Positions 1,160-38,097 of a stretch of DNA of 40,991 nt are shown here, piece after piece. This stretch comes from Gammaproteobacteria bacterium (GTDB lineage: Bacteria; Pseudomonadota; Gammaproteobacteria; S012-40): NCBI GenBank assembly GCA_029884425.1, contig JAOUHV010000024.1:1-40991 (forward strand). The letters run 5' to 3'. How positions within the stretch are numbered: the stretch's first letter is position 1; each line of letters opens with the position of its first letter. Both the position numbers and the translations under genes were made by a program. The notes under the pieces are model-generated. The model was not told the DNA's origin. It was given only the letters and a program-made list of their open reading frames with translations, and searched no databases.

Positions 1160-2182
1160 ATGCTCTATCCCCTGATCAAACCAGTGTTATTCCGTCTTGA
1201 TGCTGAGCGCGCGCATCAATTGACCCTGAAATCATTAGACTTGCTCCAAGGTCTTGGGCTGGCCGGTTGTCTGGCCAAAGCCAAGGTTGAGGATAGCGTC
1301 GAGGTCATGGGCATCCGCTTTCCCAATCGGGTGGGTTTGGCGGCGGGCCTGGACAAGAATGGCGAGCACATTCTCGGGTTGGCGGCGCTGGGGTTCGGTT
1401 TTGTCGAGATCGGTACCGTGACGCCGCGCCCGCAGCCGGGCAATCCCAAGCCGCGTTTGTTCCGGGTGGTCGAAGGCGAGGGCATTATCAATCGCATGGG
1501 GTTTAATAATCTTGGGGTGGATTACCTGCTCGAGCAGGTGAAGCGGACGCCCTTTGATGGAGTGCTTGGCATTAACATCGGCAAAAATTTCGATACGCCC
1601 ATTGAAAAAGCCACCGATGATTATTTGATTGGTCTGGAAAAGTCCTACGATCTGGCCAGCTACATCACGATCAACATTTCTTCGCCCAACACCAAGAATC
1701 TGCGCCAGTTGCAGCAGGGTGACGAAATGCAACTATTGCTCAGCTCACTGAAAAATCGCCAGCAGCAATTGGCTGCCGAGCGTGGTCGCTACGTGCCGCT
1801 GGTGGTGAAGATTGCCCCCGATCTGGATCACGAGCAAATTAAAACCATTGCCCGTCTGCTGAAAGAAAACGGCATCGACGGCGTGATTGCCACCAACACC
1901 ACCATCGGTCGCGAAGGCGTCGAAGGGATGAAAAATGCCAATGAAACAGGCGGCCTGAGTGGCGCGCCGCTGACGCACAAGTCAACGGAAGTGGTGCGGG
2001 CGCTGAAAGCCGAGCTGGGCGAGGCGCTGCCCATTATCGCTGCTGGCGGCATCATGTGCGGTGCCGACGCCGTGGCGAAAATCGAAGCGGGAGCCAAACT
2101 GGTTCAAGTCTATAGCGGTTTGATTTATCGCGGTCCGGCGCTGGTGAATGACGTGGCCAGCGCGTTGGCGAAGATGCGATGA
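1160..2182 (+). CDS. pyrD: Dihydroorotate dehydrogenase (quinone), class 2
   Basis: PyrD oxidises dihydroorotate to orotate, the fourth step of de novo pyrimidine synthesis, using FMN and membrane quinone. The 340-residue length matches class 2 enzymes (E. coli 336). The N-terminal amphipathic segment (residues 1-35), which marks class 2 and docks to the inner membrane, is present. Recognisable blocks are [11 protein letters not shown] (about 59-69), [13 protein letters not shown] (83-95), NRMGFNNLG (111-119), NISSPNT with the catalytic-base Ser175 at the same number as in E. coli, IATNTT, and the phosphate-binding GGI and VYSG segments near the C-terminus. The ATG lacks a clear Shine-Dalgarno sequence. 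The stop codon overlaps the start of the next gene (ATGA at 2179-2182), so the two are probably translationally coupled. Confidence 0.96.
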
Positions 2183-3346
2183 CCGAATTTGTCCAGCCGG
2201 ATTACCAGGGCGCAGGGCTGATTAATTTAATCAGCAGTATTCGTCTGGCCAGTGGTGATCCAAGCAGCGCACATCCGCCTTTGGCCGGGTTGCCGCTGGA
2301 ACCATTGCAGCAGGCGCAGCATCTGGTGCTGCTGGTGATTGATGGCCTGGGCTACGATTTTTTGCAGCGCCAGCAAGGCAGTTTTTTACAGCGGCATTGT
2401 CAGCAGTCGCTGACATCGGTGTTTCCAACCACGACCAGTGCGGCGATTACCTCGGTGATGTCCGGGCTGGCGCCCGCGCAACATGCGCTGACCGGCTGGT
2501 TTATGTACCTGCAGGAGCTGGGGGCAGTGACTGCGATTCTGCCGTTCACCTCTCGTTGTGGCAATGTCAGTTTTCAACGGCAGGGAATCGACATCAGTCA
2601 GGTGGTGGATGCGACGGGTTATTATTCGCGGCTGGATCGTCACGTGTATGTGGTGAGTGAACAGCGCCTGTTGAATTCGCCATTCTCCAACTGTTTTACC
2701 GGATGTGAATAATCTGGGCTACGACAATCTCGCTGGCTGTTTCAAACAATTGAACAAGGTGCTGGCTCAGGATAGTCGTACGTTCAGTTATGTCTACTGG
2801 GCGCAACTGGATCACGACGGTCATGTGTACGGCATGAACAGCCCGCAGACGCAGCAGCATTTTGCGGAACTGGATGCTGCGCTGGAAGCGCTGGCCGATT
2901 CGTTGGCTGGCAGCGATGCTTGTGTGCTGATTACTGCCGACCATGGTTTGGTTGATACGGAGCTGACTCAGGTGATTCACCTGGAACAACACCCTGAGTT
3001 GCAGGCGATGCTCAGTCATCCGTTGTGTGGCGAACCGCGTGCGGCGTACTGCTATCTCAAACCTGGTCGAGAAGCTGCGTTTGAAGCCTATGTTCAAACC
3101 CATCTGCAGGAGTTTTGTGAGGCTCGTCCCAGTCGGGAGTTGGTGCAGCAGGGGTATTTTGGACCCGGCGAGATTCATCCCAAATTACTGGACAGGATTG
3201 GCGATTACACCTTGCTGATGAAATCCAACTACGTGATCAAGGATAGGCTGCTGGGGGAAAAAGCTTTCAATCAGCGGGGCGTACACGGCGGTCTGAGCCG
3301 CCAGGAGGTTTACATCCCGCTGATTTGTTTGACGGGCAGTGGCTAG
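2179..3346 (+). pseudogene. Alkaline-phosphatase-superfamily phosphodiesterase / nucleotide pyrophosphatase, frameshifted
   Basis: Two adjoining frames together make one type I phosphodiesterase/nucleotide pyrophosphatase-like protein of about 390 residues. The 5' part (2179-2712) carries the first metal site VIDGLG (Asp55) and the nucleophile region FPTTTSAA (Thr about 85-86). The 3' part (2705-3346, nominal GTG start) carries LDHDGHVYG and TADHG, the remaining metal ligands. The halves are offset by one base. Stops in the alternative frames confine the shift to about 2675-2709. Dropping one T from the TTTT run at 2694-2697 would join them as ...SNC-LPDVNNLGYD. It may be a real mutation or an extra base in the assembly. 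Neither half alone would hold the full active site. The start overlaps the pyrD stop, so it is probably co-transcribed with pyrD. The substrate is unknown. Confidence 0.85.
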
Positions 3347-8018: not shown

Positions 8019-8414
8019 TCAAAGACCAAGTAGCCGATCTGTTTCCTGGAGTAATTTTTGGCCATCAATGGGTTTGGTAAAATAAGCGCTGAAGCCGTGG
8101 GCCATGGCATATTCAACTTCTGCGGGCATAGCATTAGCGCTAATGGCGACAATGGGTAGTTGTGGATTGGTATGGCGCAATCGTTGAGTGGCTTCAATGC
8201 CATTAATGCCGGGTAAATTGATATCCATCAAAATCAAATCGTAATGATGCTGAGCGATGAGTGCGAAGCCTTCTTCGGCACTGGTGCTGGTATCTAGTTC
8301 AATTTGTGGATTTTTTTTATAGAACAGTTTGACTAGCTTGAGATTGGGGGCATTGTCTTCAATGTATAACACACGACGGCGTTGGTAAGTGGCGCAAGTG
8401 TGGCTCTCGGTCAC
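8019..8414 (-). CDS. Single-domain response regulator (CheY-like receiver)
   Basis: A receiver domain with no output domain, 131 residues from the GTG at 8414. The phosphorylation site is complete: acidic pair Glu19/Asp20 (YIEDN), phosphoacceptor Asp64 (LMDINLPG), Ser92 (AISANA) and Lys114 (FTKPI). Such proteins signal by phosphorylation-dependent binding to a partner. Translation is set at the GTG because the family sequence begins there. The frame runs open upstream to 8669, but that stretch overlaps the kinase-like gene and its codons look unlike protein. A run of seven G just upstream of the GTG may serve as the ribosome binding site. The gene follows the histidine-kinase-like gene by about 155 bases on the same strand, separated by a strong inverted repeat. 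Confidence 0.87.
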   Translation of the reverse strand: MTESHTCATYQRRRVLYIEDNAPNLKLVKLFYKKNPQIELDTSTSAEEGFALIAQHHYDLILMDINLPGINGIEATQRLRHTNPQLPIVAISANAMPAEVEYAMAHGFSAYFTKPIDGQKLLQETDRLLGL

Positions 8415-8423
8415 AGATATCCC

Positions 8424-8436
8424 CCCCAAAAAATCT
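8424..8436 (-). promoter_or_regulatory. Homopolymer run (T6G7) in the leader of the response regulator gene
   Basis: Reading the minus strand, six T are followed by seven G ending about eight bases before the GTG start. The G run is the only plausible Shine-Dalgarno element. Homopolymer runs of this sort can slip during replication, so its length, and hence translation, might vary; nothing in a single sequence proves this. Coordinates are approximate by a few bases. Confidence 0.3.
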
Positions 8437-8528: not shown

Positions 8529-8568
8529 AATCACAAAATGCGAATATTTACGCAAAAATTTTGTGATT
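8529..8568. repeat. Perfect 11-bp inverted repeat between kinase-like and regulator genes
   Basis: AATCACAAAAT (8529-8539) and ATTTTGTGATT (8558-8568) are exact reverse complements with 18 bases between, and the spacer itself contains GCG...CGC, extending the hairpin. It begins one base after the stop codon of the kinase-like gene. It could be an RNA hairpin that protects or attenuates the transcript between the two genes, or an operator. It lacks the GC-rich stem of a typical intrinsic terminator. Confidence 0.7.
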
Positions 8569-8569
8569 A

Positions 8570-9673
8570 CTACCGTTTGGCTTTTGGATGCAGCGTGGGA
8601 GGGGTTTTGCTGGGGCAGGGCAGGCTGATGGAAAAGGTACTGCCTTTGTTGATTTGGCTTTCGGCCCAAATGCGTCCGCCCATCTTTTCCAGCAGGTGGC
8701 GAGTGGTGATCAGTCCAATGCCGGCACCCTCCACACCCTCGGAGTAGGCGTCAAAACGATTAAATGGTTCAAACAGATGGTTGATTTGTTGGGGTTTAAG
8801 TCCTTTACCGGTATCACTAATACTGATGACAAATTCACCGTTGGGTTTAGGGTTGCAGCGAATGGTAATTCTGCCGTTTTGTCGATTGTATTTGATTGCA
8901 TTGGATAGCAGGCTGATCAACACTTGTTTGAGACGCTGTTCGTCGGCATTAACCAAATTGGATTGTTGATAGGCGCGGATGATGCCGATGTTGCGTTTCT
9001 CCATCATTGGCTGTAGCTCGTTCAAACAGGTATCAAGGATTTGGTGACAATCCAGGGTGCGAATCTGCAAATTCATCTGTCCGGATTCGATTTGTGACAG
9101 ATCTGAAATGTAACGAACCACCGACAGGATATGATTGCCTGAACGGTAAATTTCGCCGGCAAAATCTTTGATCTCTGCTTGAGTGATGCGATCAGACGTT
9201 AAGTCCATGATACTTGAAAAACCGATGATGGCATTCAATGGTGTCTTTAGTTCCGTGGCAACGCGGGACAGAAAATCGAAGCTGGATGGGCGAACGCTAT
9301 GATTATGGGGGCGCGTTTGGACAGTGAGCAGTAGATGTTTATCCAAAGGAAGCCCAGGCATGACCAAGCGCTGCAATTTGCCACTGAGGCCGAATGTCTC
9401 CAGATTAATTTCCAAAGGCTCGGGAGCAATGCTATCCAGTTCCTTTGACAATGCAGTTCGATCGCAATGAGGTATTAATGCGTACAGATTTGTATCCTGT
9501 GGTGTGTTCTCCGGGAAAAAACGCTGTGCTGCGCGATTCATTGCAGACAGGGAGGCGTACTCGTCAAACAACAGAATGGGTTGCTGGTAAGCATTGTAAA
9601 GCGAATTAAACAAACCCTTTTGGGTATCGCAATCTGGCTTGGCAAATTTGTTAGTTGGTTTTCCGTTTTCCAC
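8570..9673 (-). CDS. PAS/HisKA/HATPase histidine-kinase-like protein lacking the phosphoacceptor His
   Basis: A 367-residue soluble protein: a PAS-like N-terminal part (about 20-120; no membrane helix), a HisKA-like dimerisation region (about 130-195) and an HATPase domain (about 240-352). In the HisKA motif the expected S-H-E-L-R-T-P reads A-T-E-L-K-T-P: Thr140 (ACG codon at 9256-9254) sits where the phosphorylated His should be. The ATP-binding boxes look intact: N box SNAIKYN (Asn258), G1 DTGKG (287-291), F box FEPFNRF, G2 GAGIG (316-320). So it may bind ATP yet be unable to autophosphorylate on His, acting instead as a phosphatase, scaffold or inhibitor. GTG 9673 is chosen because an AAGGAT site lies upstream; an ATG at 9802 in frame falls within the aroG terminator. 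A lone receiver gene follows. Confidence 0.85.
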   Translation of the reverse strand: MENGKPTNKFAKPDCDTQKGLFNSLYNAYQQPILLFDEYASLSAMNRAAQRFFPENTPQDTNLYALIPHCDRTALSKELDSIAPEPLEINLETFGLSGKLQRLVMPGLPLDKHLLLTVQTRPHNHSVRPSSFDFLSRVATELKTPLNAIIGFSSIMDLTSDRITQAEIKDFAGEIYRSGNHILSVVRYISDLSQIESGQMNLQIRTLDCHQILDTCLNELQPMMEKRNIGIIRAYQQSNLVNADEQRLKQVLISLLSNAIKYNRQNGRITIRCNPKPNGEFVISISDTGKGLKPQQINHLFEPFNRFDAYSEGVEGAGIGLITTRHLLEKMGGRIWAESQINKGSTFSISLPCPSKTPPTLHPKAKR

Positions 9674-9769: not shown

Positions 9770-9796
9770 GAGAAAAACCGCCCTGGTGGGCGGTTT
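9770..9796 (-). terminator. Hairpin terminator after the DAHP synthase gene
   Basis: On the minus strand AAACCGCC-CACC-AGGGCGGTTTTT follows seven bases after the aroG stop: a GC-rich stem and a T run. It lies inside the upstream end of the open frame of the kinase-like gene, which supports a later start for that gene. Confidence 0.88.
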
Positions 9797-9802
9797 AAGC
9801 AT

Positions 9803-33198: not shown

Positions 33199-35271
33199 AT
33201 GAGTGACTTTGGCGCGGTCTTTTATGCTTCAGCCGCACTGGTGTCACTTGCGCTGATTCTTCTAATTTTCCTGTATTGGCGAGCGAAGATGTTCGCGAGC
33301 TGGTTGATTGCTCCGCTGCTGGTCAATGCCGGGTGGGCGGCTGCGTTGTCTTGGGCAAGTTATGTTCAGGCACCAATCACGTTATTTAGTTTATTTGCTG
33401 AAATTGTTCGTGATTTGGTGTGGCTGATCTTTTTGGCCGCTATTTTGCGATATGCACGAAAAAGCCAGAAGGATGTGCCCAGGATATTTTTACGTATTTT
33501 TTTCGGAAGTGTATTGCTGGGTGTGCTGTTGTTGTTTCTGTTGGTTGCACTTAGCACGTTCAAAATTTCAGTACCTGTTTGGTTAGGGTACGATTTTCGG
33601 GTTATCGTACAGGTATTGTTTGCTCTTTCGTGTTTGATATTTGTCGAGCAAATTTTACGAAACACACTTTCTCATGAGCGTTGGGGAATCAAGTTTTTCT
33701 GCATTGGATTGGGGGCGCTGTTTGCCTATGATTTTTATATGTATTCCGATGCATTATTGTTTAGGGAGTTAGATCCCAATATTTGGTATGCGCGCGGGGT
33801 GGCTGAGGTGTTGGCGCTAGGTATGGTGGCGCTGGGCATTAGCCGCATGCCGATGGGTGATAGCCGATTGATGTTTTCCCGGCAAATTGTTTTTTATACC
33901 ACTGGTATGGCGGCGGCGGGCGCCTACCTTCTAGTAATATCACTTGGTGGATATTACATCATGGTGTTTGGCGGTGAATGGGCTGCCATTATTAGAAATG
34001 TTTTTATTTTTTCCTGCATTATCGGCTTTGTTGTTTTGGTATTTTCGGGGCAAATTCGTGCCAGGCTGCGCGTTTTTGTTGATAAGCATTTCCTTAATGC
34101 AAAATATGACTACAAAAATGAATGGCTTTCTGTTATCAGAGAAATGTCGGCGGAAGATGAAAGCAAGGGGAGCGTGGAAACTCGAACCTTGCGTGTAATG
34201 CTGACAGCAATGGATTGCCAAGCAGCAGCTCTTTGGGTGCGTGATAACAAAACGAATTTTATATGCGAAGATCAATTTGGATTTGGTGAATTTGAAGGTA
34301 TTGAAGTAAGCAATCATAGTCGCATAATTCAATTCCTGGAGGAAAGTCAGTGGGTAATAAATATTGATGAATACCACATGGGTATGGAACAGTATCCTGA
34401 TTTTCTGTTGCCTGAGTGGATAGAGAAAAACCCAAGGGTCTGGTTAATAGTCCCACTGATGTTGCAATCAAAATTGCATGGATTTGTCATTTTGTCGCGG
34501 CCGAGGGCAGAGCAAACATTTGGCTGGGAGGATGTCGACCTCCTGAAAACGTTGGGGCGACAGTTAGCGACACATTTAGCTCACGCCCGTTCTGCGAGCG
34601 CATTGGCACATTCCAGGCAGTTTGAGGCATTTAATCGACTGTCGGCGTACGTTATACATGACCTAAAAAATTTGGTGTCGCAGTTAGATTTGGTTGTGAA
34701 AAACGCACAGAAGCATAAACACAACCCTGAGTTTATGGACGATGCAATCAGTACGGTAGGGAATGCGGTAAATCGCATGAACAAACTATTGATTCAACTA
34801 CGAGGGGGGGGAGTGATCTCTGATAGAGATGAGCAGGCCAATATCCGTGATATAGTAGCACAGGCAGTAAGGGAAAAATCAGCTACCGAGCCTATCCCTT
34901 GTATTGAAGGAGAGGGCGTGAATGCCACAATACGAGCAAACAATGACAAACTGGTCTCTGTAATTGGTCACTTAGTTCAAAATGCACAGGAGGCTACTTC
35001 TCGGGATGGTCACGTTGAAGTGCGAACATTCATTGATGGCAGCGATGTAGTGATCGAAGTAGAGGATAATGGGTGTGGTATGAGTGACTCATTCATTCGA
35101 GATAGACTATTTACTCCGTTTGACACCACTAAAGGGTTGACCGGAATGGGCATTGGAGCTCATGAGTCAAAGCTCTATATCGAGCAGTTAGGTGGAAAGT
35201 TACGAGTAAAAAGCGAAGTTGGTAAGGGAACGCTTTTTACTGTGCGCCTCCCTCTGAGTTCAAATTTGTAA
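33199..35271 (+). CDS. prsK: XrtA/PEP-CTERM-system sensor histidine kinase PrsK
   Basis: A 690-residue membrane sensor. About eight N-terminal helices (1-290) are followed by a GAF domain (about 330-475) with VWLIVPLMLQSKLHGFVILSRP, a phosphoacceptor helix AYVIHDLKNLVSQL with His487, and an HATPase domain (about 560-690) with VIGHLVQNAQEAT, VEDNGCGM and GMGIGAHESK. This order is that of PrsK, the sensor of exosortase A loci; the signal is unknown. In contrast to the kinase-like protein at 9.6 kb, the phosphorylated His is present. ATG 33199 lacks a clear ribosome binding site and follows the transferase closely, so coupling is likely. prsR starts shortly after. Confidence 0.92.
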   Translation: MSDFGAVFYASAALVSLALILLIFLYWRAKMFASWLIAPLLVNAGWAAALSWASYVQAPITLFSLFAEIVRDLVWLIFLAAILRYARKSQKDVPRIFLRIFFGSVLLGVLLLFLLVALSTFKISVPVWLGYDFRVIVQVLFALSCLIFVEQILRNTLSHERWGIKFFCIGLGALFAYDFYMYSDALLFRELDPNIWYARGVAEVLALGMVALGISRMPMGDSRLMFSRQIVFYTTGMAAAGAYLLVISLGGYYIMVFGGEWAAIIRNVFIFSCIIGFVVLVFSGQIRARLRVFVDKHFLNAKYDYKNEWLSVIREMSAEDESKGSVETRTLRVMLTAMDCQAAALWVRDNKTNFICEDQFGFGEFEGIEVSNHSRIIQFLEESQWVINIDEYHMGMEQYPDFLLPEWIEKNPRVWLIVPLMLQSKLHGFVILSRPRAEQTFGWEDVDLLKTLGRQLATHLAHARSASALAHSRQFEAFNRLSAYVIHDLKNLVSQLDLVVKNAQKHKHNPEFMDDAISTVGNAVNRMNKLLIQLRGGGVISDRDEQANIRDIVAQAVREKSATEPIPCIEGEGVNATIRANNDKLVSVIGHLVQNAQEATSRDGHVEVRTFIDGSDVVIEVEDNGCGMSDSFIRDRLFTPFDTTKGLTGMGIGAHESKLYIEQLGGKLRVKSEVGKGTLFTVRLPLSSNL

Positions 35272-35286
35272 AGTGGAGAATTGGAT

Positions 35287-36633
35287 TTGGCTGAAAAATC
35301 TACCTTGCTGATTGTTGAAGACGATTTGGGAATTCAAAACCAACTCAAATGGTGTTTTGATGCTTACGAAATTGTTTTAGCCTCCAATCGTGAAGAGGCA
35401 ATAAATGCATTGCGTAGATTCGAACCTCAAGTTGTAACGCTGGATATGGGATTACCGCCTGATCCTGGTGGAACAAGTGAGGGGCTGGCGACATTGGAAG
35501 CGATATTGAATTTGGCGCCAAAGACAAAAGTCGTTGTTGTTACCGGAAATGATGACAAGCCTACTGCAGTAAAAGCAATTGGCTTGGGGGCGTATGACTT
35601 TTATTTGAAGCCCATTGATGCAGATATTTTAGGATTAATTGTAAATCGCGCGTTTCGGGTTGCCGAACTGGAAGCTGAGAACGAGAGGTTGTATCAGGGG
35701 GCGCATTCTCCTTTAGAGGGATTGATCGCAAGCAGTCCACAAATGATGAAAGTTTGTCGTACCGTGGAAAAAGTGGCGCCAACAAATGCGACAGTTTTAC
35801 TTTTGGGAAGCAGTGGTACTGGAAAAGAAGTGCTGGCGAGATCTATACATAGATTGAGTTCTCGGGTGGAACAGCGGTTTGTGGCAATTAATTGTGCGGC
35901 GATACCTGAAAATCTTCTCGAAAGTGAATTATTTGGATATGAAAAAGGTGCTTTTACTGGAGCAGTGAAGCAAACGCCTGGAAAAATAGAGTATGCGCAT
36001 GGTGGAACTCTTTTTCTTGATGAAATAGGTGATTTACCCATGGCTCTTCAGGCGAAATTGCTCAGATTTTTACAAGAAAGAGTTATTGAGCGAGTTGGTG
36101 GACGTGGAGAAATTCCTGTTGATGTGAGGGTGATTTGTGCAACTCATCGTACCTTGCAGGACATGATTGCTGAAGGGCTTTTTAGGGAAGACTTATTCTA
36201 TCGATTGAGTGAGATAACTATCAATATTCCTGCCCTAAAGGATAGGGATGGGGATGCATTAATGATTGCTAGAGCGATATTGAGCAGAGTTGTTGTTGAG
36301 TCTGGCGGAAAGACAAAAGACTTTACTCAGGATGCAGTTGCTGCGATTGAAAATTATGCGTGGCCAGGAAATGTACGTGAGCTGGAAAATAGGGTGAAGC
36401 GCGCATTTATCATGAGCGATGGTACGAAAATATCGGCGGAAGATCTTGAGCTAAATGAAATCGGTGATGAGAAAATGCCATTTAACCTTAGAGAAGTGCG
36501 AGAGGCTGCAGAAAAAAGAGCGGTTAGTCGCGCGCTACACTATTCGAATGGGAATATTGCACAGGCTGCCGAGCTATTGGGAATAAGTCGGCCTACGTTG
36601 TATGACCTAATGAAAAAACTTGGAATACAGTAA
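35287..36633 (+). CDS. prsR: XrtA/PEP-CTERM-system sigma-54 response regulator PrsR
   Basis: A 448-residue NtrC-type regulator: receiver (about 6-125) with VEDD, phosphoacceptor Asp53 (VVTLDMGLPP) and Lys (FYLKPID); AAA+ domain (about 145-380) with LLGSSGTGKEVLA (Walker A), GAFTGA (contact with sigma-54), GGTLFLDEIGDLP (Walker B), and the RPGNVREL-like WPGNVRELEN; a Fis-type helix-turn-helix at the end (NIAQAAELLGISRPTLYDLMKKLG). It should activate sigma-54 promoters of PEP-CTERM and polysaccharide genes after phosphorylation by PrsK. I choose TTG 35287, eight bases after GGAG, giving MAEKST; an earlier TTG at 35281 lies only two bases after it. Few PrsR-type loci use TTG, so the start is worth checking. 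xrtA starts directly after the stop. Confidence 0.93.
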   Translation: MAEKSTLLIVEDDLGIQNQLKWCFDAYEIVLASNREEAINALRRFEPQVVTLDMGLPPDPGGTSEGLATLEAILNLAPKTKVVVVTGNDDKPTAVKAIGLGAYDFYLKPIDADILGLIVNRAFRVAELEAENERLYQGAHSPLEGLIASSPQMMKVCRTVEKVAPTNATVLLLGSSGTGKEVLARSIHRLSSRVEQRFVAINCAAIPENLLESELFGYEKGAFTGAVKQTPGKIEYAHGGTLFLDEIGDLPMALQAKLLRFLQERVIERVGGRGEIPVDVRVICATHRTLQDMIAEGLFREDLFYRLSEITINIPALKDRDGDALMIARAILSRVVVESGGKTKDFTQDAVAAIENYAWPGNVRELENRVKRAFIMSDGTKISAEDLELNEIGDEKMPFNLREVREAAEKRAVSRALHYSNGNIAQAAELLGISRPTLYDLMKKLGIQ

Positions 36634-38097
36634 ATGAACATTCGTATGCCGGCTCTAGGGCTTCACATCTTATTCCTGGCGACATTAGCATTGGTGTTGC
36701 TAATGTATTCAGCAGGTATCGAATTTTTAATGCTGAAGTGGCTGAATTTTGATCATGGAACCTATAATCACGGTTTTCTATTGTTGGCTGTGGCGATTTA
36801 TTTCTTTTACAAACGATTTCCAGCACAAAAATTTTCAGATGAAAGATTCAAAGTAGTTGGGGCCGTATGCTCTGTATTACTAGCGCTAATTGGATTTGCT
36901 TTAGGCGCGATCAATATAGTTGCAGGTCAGGTATTGGTTCTGTATCTATTACTGTTTTTTATGCTGTTGGCAACGTATGGCTGGGGAGGAGCAAAAGCCT
37001 CTATATTTCCACTAGCAATACTGTCATTTGCAATACCCGTCTGGGACGTTATTGACGGAGTTCTACAACAAACTACCGCATTGATGTCTTATTATCTTGT
37101 TCAGTTGAGTGGTATACATATACTGAAGCAGGGAATTGATTTAGTTGTTCCTGCCGGAAGGTTTGAAGTTGCACCATCGTGCAGTGGAATTAGTTATTTT
37201 CTTGCAGCAGCGCCGCTGGCAATTATTTACGCTGCCCGGAATTTTGGATCAAAAAAGCATCAAACTATTGTTGTTGCTTCGATTGTTTTGGCAGCAATTG
37301 TTTCCAACTGGATTAGGGTTGCGATTATTGTTGTTGTTGGTGAAACGACAAATATGCAGCATAGCCTGGTTGAAGATCATTTCAATTTGGGGTGGGTGAT
37401 TTTCGGTGTTTTCTTTATTGGTGCGATTTTAATTTTTAATAGAGTATTTCCAGGTCCTGGGGACGAAGCTCAAATTAATACTGAAACTCCCATTAGCTCC
37501 AAGGTCGCTGCGTCACACGCGACACTTCTATCAGCAGGAATTTTGATTATCTTTCTGGCAAATCTTACGATCACGCAAAAGCTGAATAATGTTTCTAGTG
37601 CATCTGCGCTGGAAGGTATCTCCGTGCCGAGGGAATTCACGTTGACTCAACCTATATCGTTGGCACGGAAAATTGATGTTCCAGGAGACGTGAATGTTGA
37701 TTACTTGGCAGTGTCTATGGATTCGCCGGTATATTTGCGCATTAGTGGTTTTGAGAGACAAACTCAGGGATGGGAGATTGTCTCCTCGTTGACTAAACCA
37801 GAAAATTATTTTGAAACTCCAGGAGGATGGGTGGAGTATGCGGGAAAACGGAATCTTTCCTCTTTGGTTGTTAATAAATATTTTTTACACATTAATGGAA
37901 TGAAGCGTTATGTGGTGTGGCAATGGTATTTCGTCAATGGGCACCACACTGGAGTGAGTGTTGAAGCAAAGCTTGCTGAATTCGCTGGGTATGTGCGTGG
38001 TAATAATGCCGGCGCCGTCATTTTTTTGATGGTGGAAACTGGAATGGAGGACTCGCTGATTCAGTTTGCTCAAGAACTGACTGCGAATGAACGGTAA
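36634..38097 (+). CDS. xrtA: Exosortase A with C-terminal EpsI domain
   Basis: A 487-residue protein: an eight-helix exosortase (about 1-275) followed by an EpsI-like periplasmic domain (about 320-485). Exosortases recognise PEP-CTERM tails of exported proteins and move them to the cell surface or outer face of the membrane. The proposed catalytic residues are all present: Cys183 (VAPSCSGISYF), Arg228 (SNWIRVAI), His249 (VEDHFNLGW). The EpsI part has GWEIVSSLTKPENYF-like and YVVWQWYFVNGHHTG, as seen in the fused XrtA type. Its ATG comes right after the prsR stop, and prsT starts 20 bases on, so these are one operon. EpsI is named from polysaccharide loci but its biochemical role is not clear. 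Confidence 0.94.
   Translation: MNIRMPALGLHILFLATLALVLLMYSAGIEFLMLKWLNFDHGTYNHGFLLLAVAIYFFYKRFPAQKFSDERFKVVGAVCSVLLALIGFALGAINIVAGQVLVLYLLLFFMLLATYGWGGAKASIFPLAILSFAIPVWDVIDGVLQQTTALMSYYLVQLSGIHILKQGIDLVVPAGRFEVAPSCSGISYFLAAAPLAIIYAARNFGSKKHQTIVVASIVLAAIVSNWIRVAIIVVVGETTNMQHSLVEDHFNLGWVIFGVFFIGAILIFNRVFPGPGDEAQINTETPISSKVAASHATLLSAGILIIFLANLTITQKLNNVSSASALEGISVPREFTLTQPISLARKIDVPGDVNVDYLAVSMDSPVYLRISGFERQTQGWEIVSSLTKPENYFETPGGWVEYAGKRNLSSLVVNKYFLHINGMKRYVVWQWYFVNGHHTGVSVEAKLAEFAGYVRGNNAGAVIFLMVETGMEDSLIQFAQELTANER

Follow-up and report, generated by a model that had tools for sequence, protein, structure and literature searches.

The locus raises the question of what a histidine-kinase-like protein can be when threonine stands at the position of the phosphoacceptor histidine, and what the lone receiver encoded beside it has to do with it. 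The window, meaning the whole stretch of DNA analysed, is 40,991 nucleotides long, and the features at issue are the following.

8570..9673, minus strand: pseudo-histidine kinase gene, 367 aa, GTG start at 9673, stop at 8570
9254..9256, minus strand: codon ACG of Thr140, the HisKA phosphoacceptor position (numbered from GTG 9673)
9242..9244, minus strand: codon of Thr144, the retained H+4 residue, which is the phosphatase residue of HisKA kinases
8912..8914, minus strand: codon AGC of Ser254, replacing the first N-box Asn
8019..8414, minus strand: lone receiver gene, 131 aa, probable GTG start, closest to hybrid-kinase receivers

The reading preferred here, given a probability of about 0.55, is that the protein arose from a HisKA-HATPase-receiver hybrid and is now a natural pseudo-histidine kinase, that it does not autophosphorylate, and that, if it is functional, it would be a phosphatase or sensor of the receiver.

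The protein has an N-terminal region without a recognised family, followed by HisKA (DHp) and HATPase_c (CA) domains with Pfam scores of 38.2 and 97.2 bits, respectively, both above the cut-off. Pfam found no PAS domain at the N-terminus, where the structure model is of low confidence; the DHp helices are predicted with confidence, alpha1 comprising residues 129-158. An alternative ATG lies upstream at 9802, but GTG 9673 is the more sensible start because it is fronted by the Shine-Dalgarno sequence AAGGA, while the ATG immediately precedes the strong terminator-like hairpin of an aroG-type gene.

9770..9796, minus strand: hairpin resembling a terminator, with a 9-bp stem and z -3.9; it follows the aroG-type DAHP synthase gene and lies upstream of the kinase start

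Alignment to solved structures places T140 opposite the His of HK853-type kinases, which bears out the sequence-only reading that Thr, encoded by ACG at 9256-9254, occupies the HisKA phosphorylation site. That reading also counted ACG as two changes away from CAC, which is wrong, as ACG differs from both CAC and CAT at all three bases. An alignment with the true His elsewhere in the helix had been named as grounds for withdrawing the assignment; alpha1 contains no substitute His (the histidines of the protein are residues 69, 113, 123, 125, 181, 210, 299, 326, and 362), and the Thr140 reading stands. Active HisKA kinases have the phosphoacceptor His in the H-box; here the HisKA and HATPase_c folds are recognised and the phosphorylation site is missing, as in a pseudo-histidine kinase. 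Glu141, the H+1 acid, is retained. The substitution is rare among the sequences compared. The alignment held 189 kinase rows from related genomes, named genomes, and the own genome, of which 3 were gapped, and the Thr140 protein, occupying three rows through overlapping loci, was counted once; in the resulting 184 rows the site is His in 182, Thr only in this protein, and Asn in one other. All 43 aligned kinases from elsewhere in the own genome have His. The Asn belongs to a Parabacteroides kinase (L085, 820-2955, plus strand; SHINNEIRNPLNAI), a possible pseudo-histidine kinase. A DNA pattern for the Thr-type H-box matched in 2 of 369 class genomes, the own genome and one other (G359), the latter rejected as a second Thr-type H-box in the class since the match arose by chance on the strand opposite a binding-protein gene and is not a kinase; the His-type pattern gave 174 matches in 94 of the 369.

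A second departure lies in the ATP-binding domain. The N, G1, F, and G2 boxes had been said to remain, which holds in the alignment for G1, F, and G2 but not for the N box, since only the second of its two Asn residues, Asn258, is retained of the pair found in active HisKA kinases. The first is Ser254; that column is Asn in 177 aligned rows and Ser in the Thr140 protein only. We take Ser254 to correspond to this N-box Asn from the alignment to HK853-type structures. Active HisKA kinases use the first N-box Asn in phosphoryl transfer, where it is paired with the H+1 acid (PMC8292422). Its loss, overlooked in the sequence-only reading, strengthens the case for a dead kinase: autophosphorylation has most likely been lost, judging from the residues, because Thr140 cannot take the phosphorelay phosphate and Ser254 removes the N-box Asn. 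Dimerisation and ATP binding are probably still in place, the latter because the G1, F, and G2 boxes are intact. At the 39 columns with 90% conservation or more among 29 relatives, the Thr140 protein departs 9 times and the relatives 0 to 3 times, the figure of 9/39 being somewhat inflated because the columns were defined without this protein. Its departures are concentrated in the DHp domain, with 8/18 there and 1/21, residue 254, in the CA domain (Fisher p 0.006).

The adjoining receiver has Asp64 and every switch residue, as had been claimed for it (E19, D20, D64, S92, K114). It is closest to receivers that form the C-terminal domain of hybrid kinases, which makes it, judged by relationship, a detached hybrid receiver. 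The kinase core is likewise closest to hybrid kinases that carry a single C-terminal receiver, and several genes are common to both searches: in a set of 102 hybrids, the eight nearest to the kinase and the eight nearest to the receiver both include L117, L121, L123, L124, and L126. Because the same fused genes are nearest to both parts, the pair is read as the two fragments of a former hybrid kinase gene, whose kinase half would have changed fast during or after the break; this ancestry is indicated by the nearest relatives, the deep branches of the tree being unresolved. The ordinary hybrids of the same class that are nearest to both parts, such as L117, L121, L126, and the own-genome C79 (L136), are each a single open frame with the His and the N-box Asn present, unlike the Thr140 protein. 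Evolution is unusually fast in the kinase half and normal in the receiver half: the terminal branch of the kinase is 1.44 substitutions per site (rank 101 of 103, median 0.60), that of the receiver is 0.71 (rank 69 of 103, median 0.58), and the kinase/receiver distance ratio of 1.32 is the highest in a 16-gene IQ-TREE set.

Kinase and receiver are not joined in one polypeptide as in a hybrid; the kinase ends in tandem TAG TAA stops, and the receiver begins 155 nt on in another frame. A simple frameshift split of one hybrid is rejected on account of these stops and the long spacer. Insertion of a dispersed element between the two is also rejected, since the spacer, searched against the own genome, matches only itself. 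Directly after the kinase stop lies an inverted repeat.

8529..8568, minus strand: inverted repeat with 11-nt perfect arms (8529-8539 and 8558-8568), followed by TTTT

From its sequence, the repeat is a possible terminator. Co-transcription is uncertain because the repeat and TTTT follow the tandem stops, and the two genes may not be one transcriptional unit. A T6G7 tract (8416-8430, minus strand) directly precedes the probable GTG of the receiver; its length could vary and affect expression. A kinase and receiver in another genome (G046, L175) were considered as a parallel split pair and rejected, as their two frames overlap and the kinase there retains its His; the pair was also set aside because other hybrids in G046 are broken by frame changes. 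The G046 hybrids L175, L181, and L182 are spread over two frames that overlap or adjoin, which points to frameshifts or to sequencing indels in the G046 assembly.

If the pair were conserved in relatives, as the sequence-only reading envisaged, it would be a signalling unit; no orthologous pair was found in related genomes. The N-terminal 130 aa have no orthologue in 13 family genomes or 369 class genomes, 56 relatives contain no near-full-length orthologue of the whole protein (the best full-length matches are about 41%), and a pattern search of the named genomes for an orthologue of the kinase gave none; the genus is sampled by one genome. The idea of a conserved unit is thus unsupported in the genomes searched, and calling it little described was too strong, since 722 of 76,471 HisKA domains (0.9%) are without His (PMC12632262) and several cases have been studied. 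With about 44 HisKA kinases in the own genome, that rate predicts about 0.4 without His, so finding one is unsurprising. The Thr140 protein is a single case, not conserved, within this class, whose share of HisKA domains had already been counted. As no orthologue was found, selection for a function appears to be without support at the sequence level.

If the protein does have a function, then that of a phosphatase or of a DivL-like sensor of a phosphorylated receiver would be the likeliest by analogy. The phosphatase action of CrdS depends on the H+4 residue, and CrdS H371A retains most of this activity, with a half-life of the phosphorylated response regulator of 2.6 min, compared with 0.7 for the wild type and 53.5 with no kinase (PMC3510030). 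A phosphatase or sensor role is favoured because the H+4 residue, Thr144, is kept here and because the CrdS mutant without its His is still largely active; phosphatase action does not, however, explain pseudo-histidine kinases in general (PMC12632262). The pseudokinase would bind phosphorylated receivers, its neighbour first of all, and either dephosphorylate them through Thr144 or, in the manner of DivL with DivK~P, sense their state. The phosphate on the receiver might in turn come from a different kinase, from an HPt protein, or from a small phosphodonor; the own genome has 15 HPt domains.

Among known systems, DivL from Caulobacter is a pseudokinase with Tyr550 that senses the single-domain receiver DivK~P (PMC4211667). 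The kinase sequence matches DivL structure 4q20 with E 6e-23, and in both a HisKA fold has another residue in place of the His, kinase activity is poor or absent (predicted for the Thr140 protein), and a single-domain receiver is a possible partner. DivL orthologues have Tyr at the site and a multi-PAS N-terminus, neither of which is found in this 367-aa protein with Thr and no Pfam PAS. DivL is conserved in alphaproteobacteria and coupled to CckA, whereas the Thr140 protein has no orthologue in the genomes searched, and DivK, unlike the receiver here, is not known to derive from a hybrid kinase by detachment. DrBphP from Deinococcus has lost the N-box Asn and the H+1 acid, has no kinase activity, and keeps phosphatase activity (PMC8292422). 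The Thr140 protein, too, lacks this Asn, the partner of the H+1 acid, and a phosphatase rather than a kinase is proposed for it by analogy; however, DrBphP retains the His and lacks the H+1 acid, while the Thr140 protein lacks the His and retains the H+1 Glu. DrBphP further has a phytochrome sensor and Glu at H+4, where the Thr140 protein has Thr. CCNA_03265, also from Caulobacter, is a hybrid kinase without the conserved His and with the receiver Asp present (PMC11481889). Both cases combine a His-less kinase domain with an intact receiver, but CCNA_03265 is still fused and has H151 nearby as a candidate substitute, while here the genes are separate and alpha1 has no His.

If the protein is real and functional, then both partners in phosphoryl transfer, the His and the N-box Asn, have been lost while the ATP-binding and phosphatase residues have been kept, and it would be a test case for hybrid kinases turning into phosphatases or sensors. 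That the split hybrid has become a lineage-specific two-gene switch, with the former kinase an ATP-binding phosphatase or phospho-sensor of its own former receiver, is an improbable extension; were it true, other kinases or HPt proteins would supply the receiver with phosphate and the receiver would report to the former kinase, reversing the direction of signalling.

The kinase gene may instead be decaying, a case in which a hybrid broke up, kinase function was lost, and the protein is heading towards a pseudogene with no present role. Two active-site losses, the long terminal branch, and the lack of an orthologue fit this account, and another gene in the window also looks broken; still, an open frame of 367 codons with a Shine-Dalgarno sequence, an ATP site departing at a single conserved CA column with departures unevenly spread, and an intact receiver make decay a doubtful explanation, though a possible one. 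A pseudokinase could also pair with another kinase of the own genome and tune it, as RetS tunes GacS (PMC4866733) and the inactive ChrS pseudokinase tunes HrrS (PMC9491836). The confidently predicted DHp helices and more than 40 other kinases in the genome would allow such a heterodimer, but there is no close paralogue (the best is 38% identical) and no partner is indicated, so this role is unlikely.

An error of sequencing or assembly, with His as the true codon, is very unlikely. Two compensating one-base indels would lead from GTT GCC CAC GAA, which occurs in the own-genome kinase L161, to GTT GCC ACG GAA, with one C lost and one G gained relative to the L161 wording, and there is a frameshift elsewhere in the window. 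Two such errors would, however, have to lie only a few bases apart, none of the 43 other HisKA genes in the assembly is interrupted by an in-frame stop at the match, and Ser254 is a separate departure that the error would not explain, the whole DHp being divergent. As an origin of the Thr, two compensating indels would be a shorter route than three substitutions, but in the sampled genes of the window GCC accounts for 31% of the Ala codons, so that the out-of-frame CAC speaks for it only weakly. Finally, phosphorylation of Thr140, or of another residue as the acceptor, is scarcely credible even with the ATP-site boxes largely intact and Glu141 kept, because no HisKA protein phosphorylated on Thr was found as a precedent, the N-box Asn that phosphoryl transfer requires has gone, and alpha1 offers no His. 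The pseudokinase reading as first put forward therefore keeps its ATP-binding and phosphatase elements, with G1, F, G2, and Thr144 intact, and loses its suggestion of Thr as the phosphoacceptor.

Elsewhere in the window, a type I phosphodiesterase-like gene (2179-3346, plus strand) lies in two overlapping frames, split near 2690-2705; its relatives are single genes of about 390-450 aa, and the split is either a real frameshift or an assembly indel. At 33199-38097 (plus strand), after a sugar transferase, a GAF-HATPase kinase without a Pfam HisKA, a sigma-54 response regulator with a receiver, and an EpsH exosortase gene stand in a row, presumably a PrsK/PrsR-exosortase cluster.
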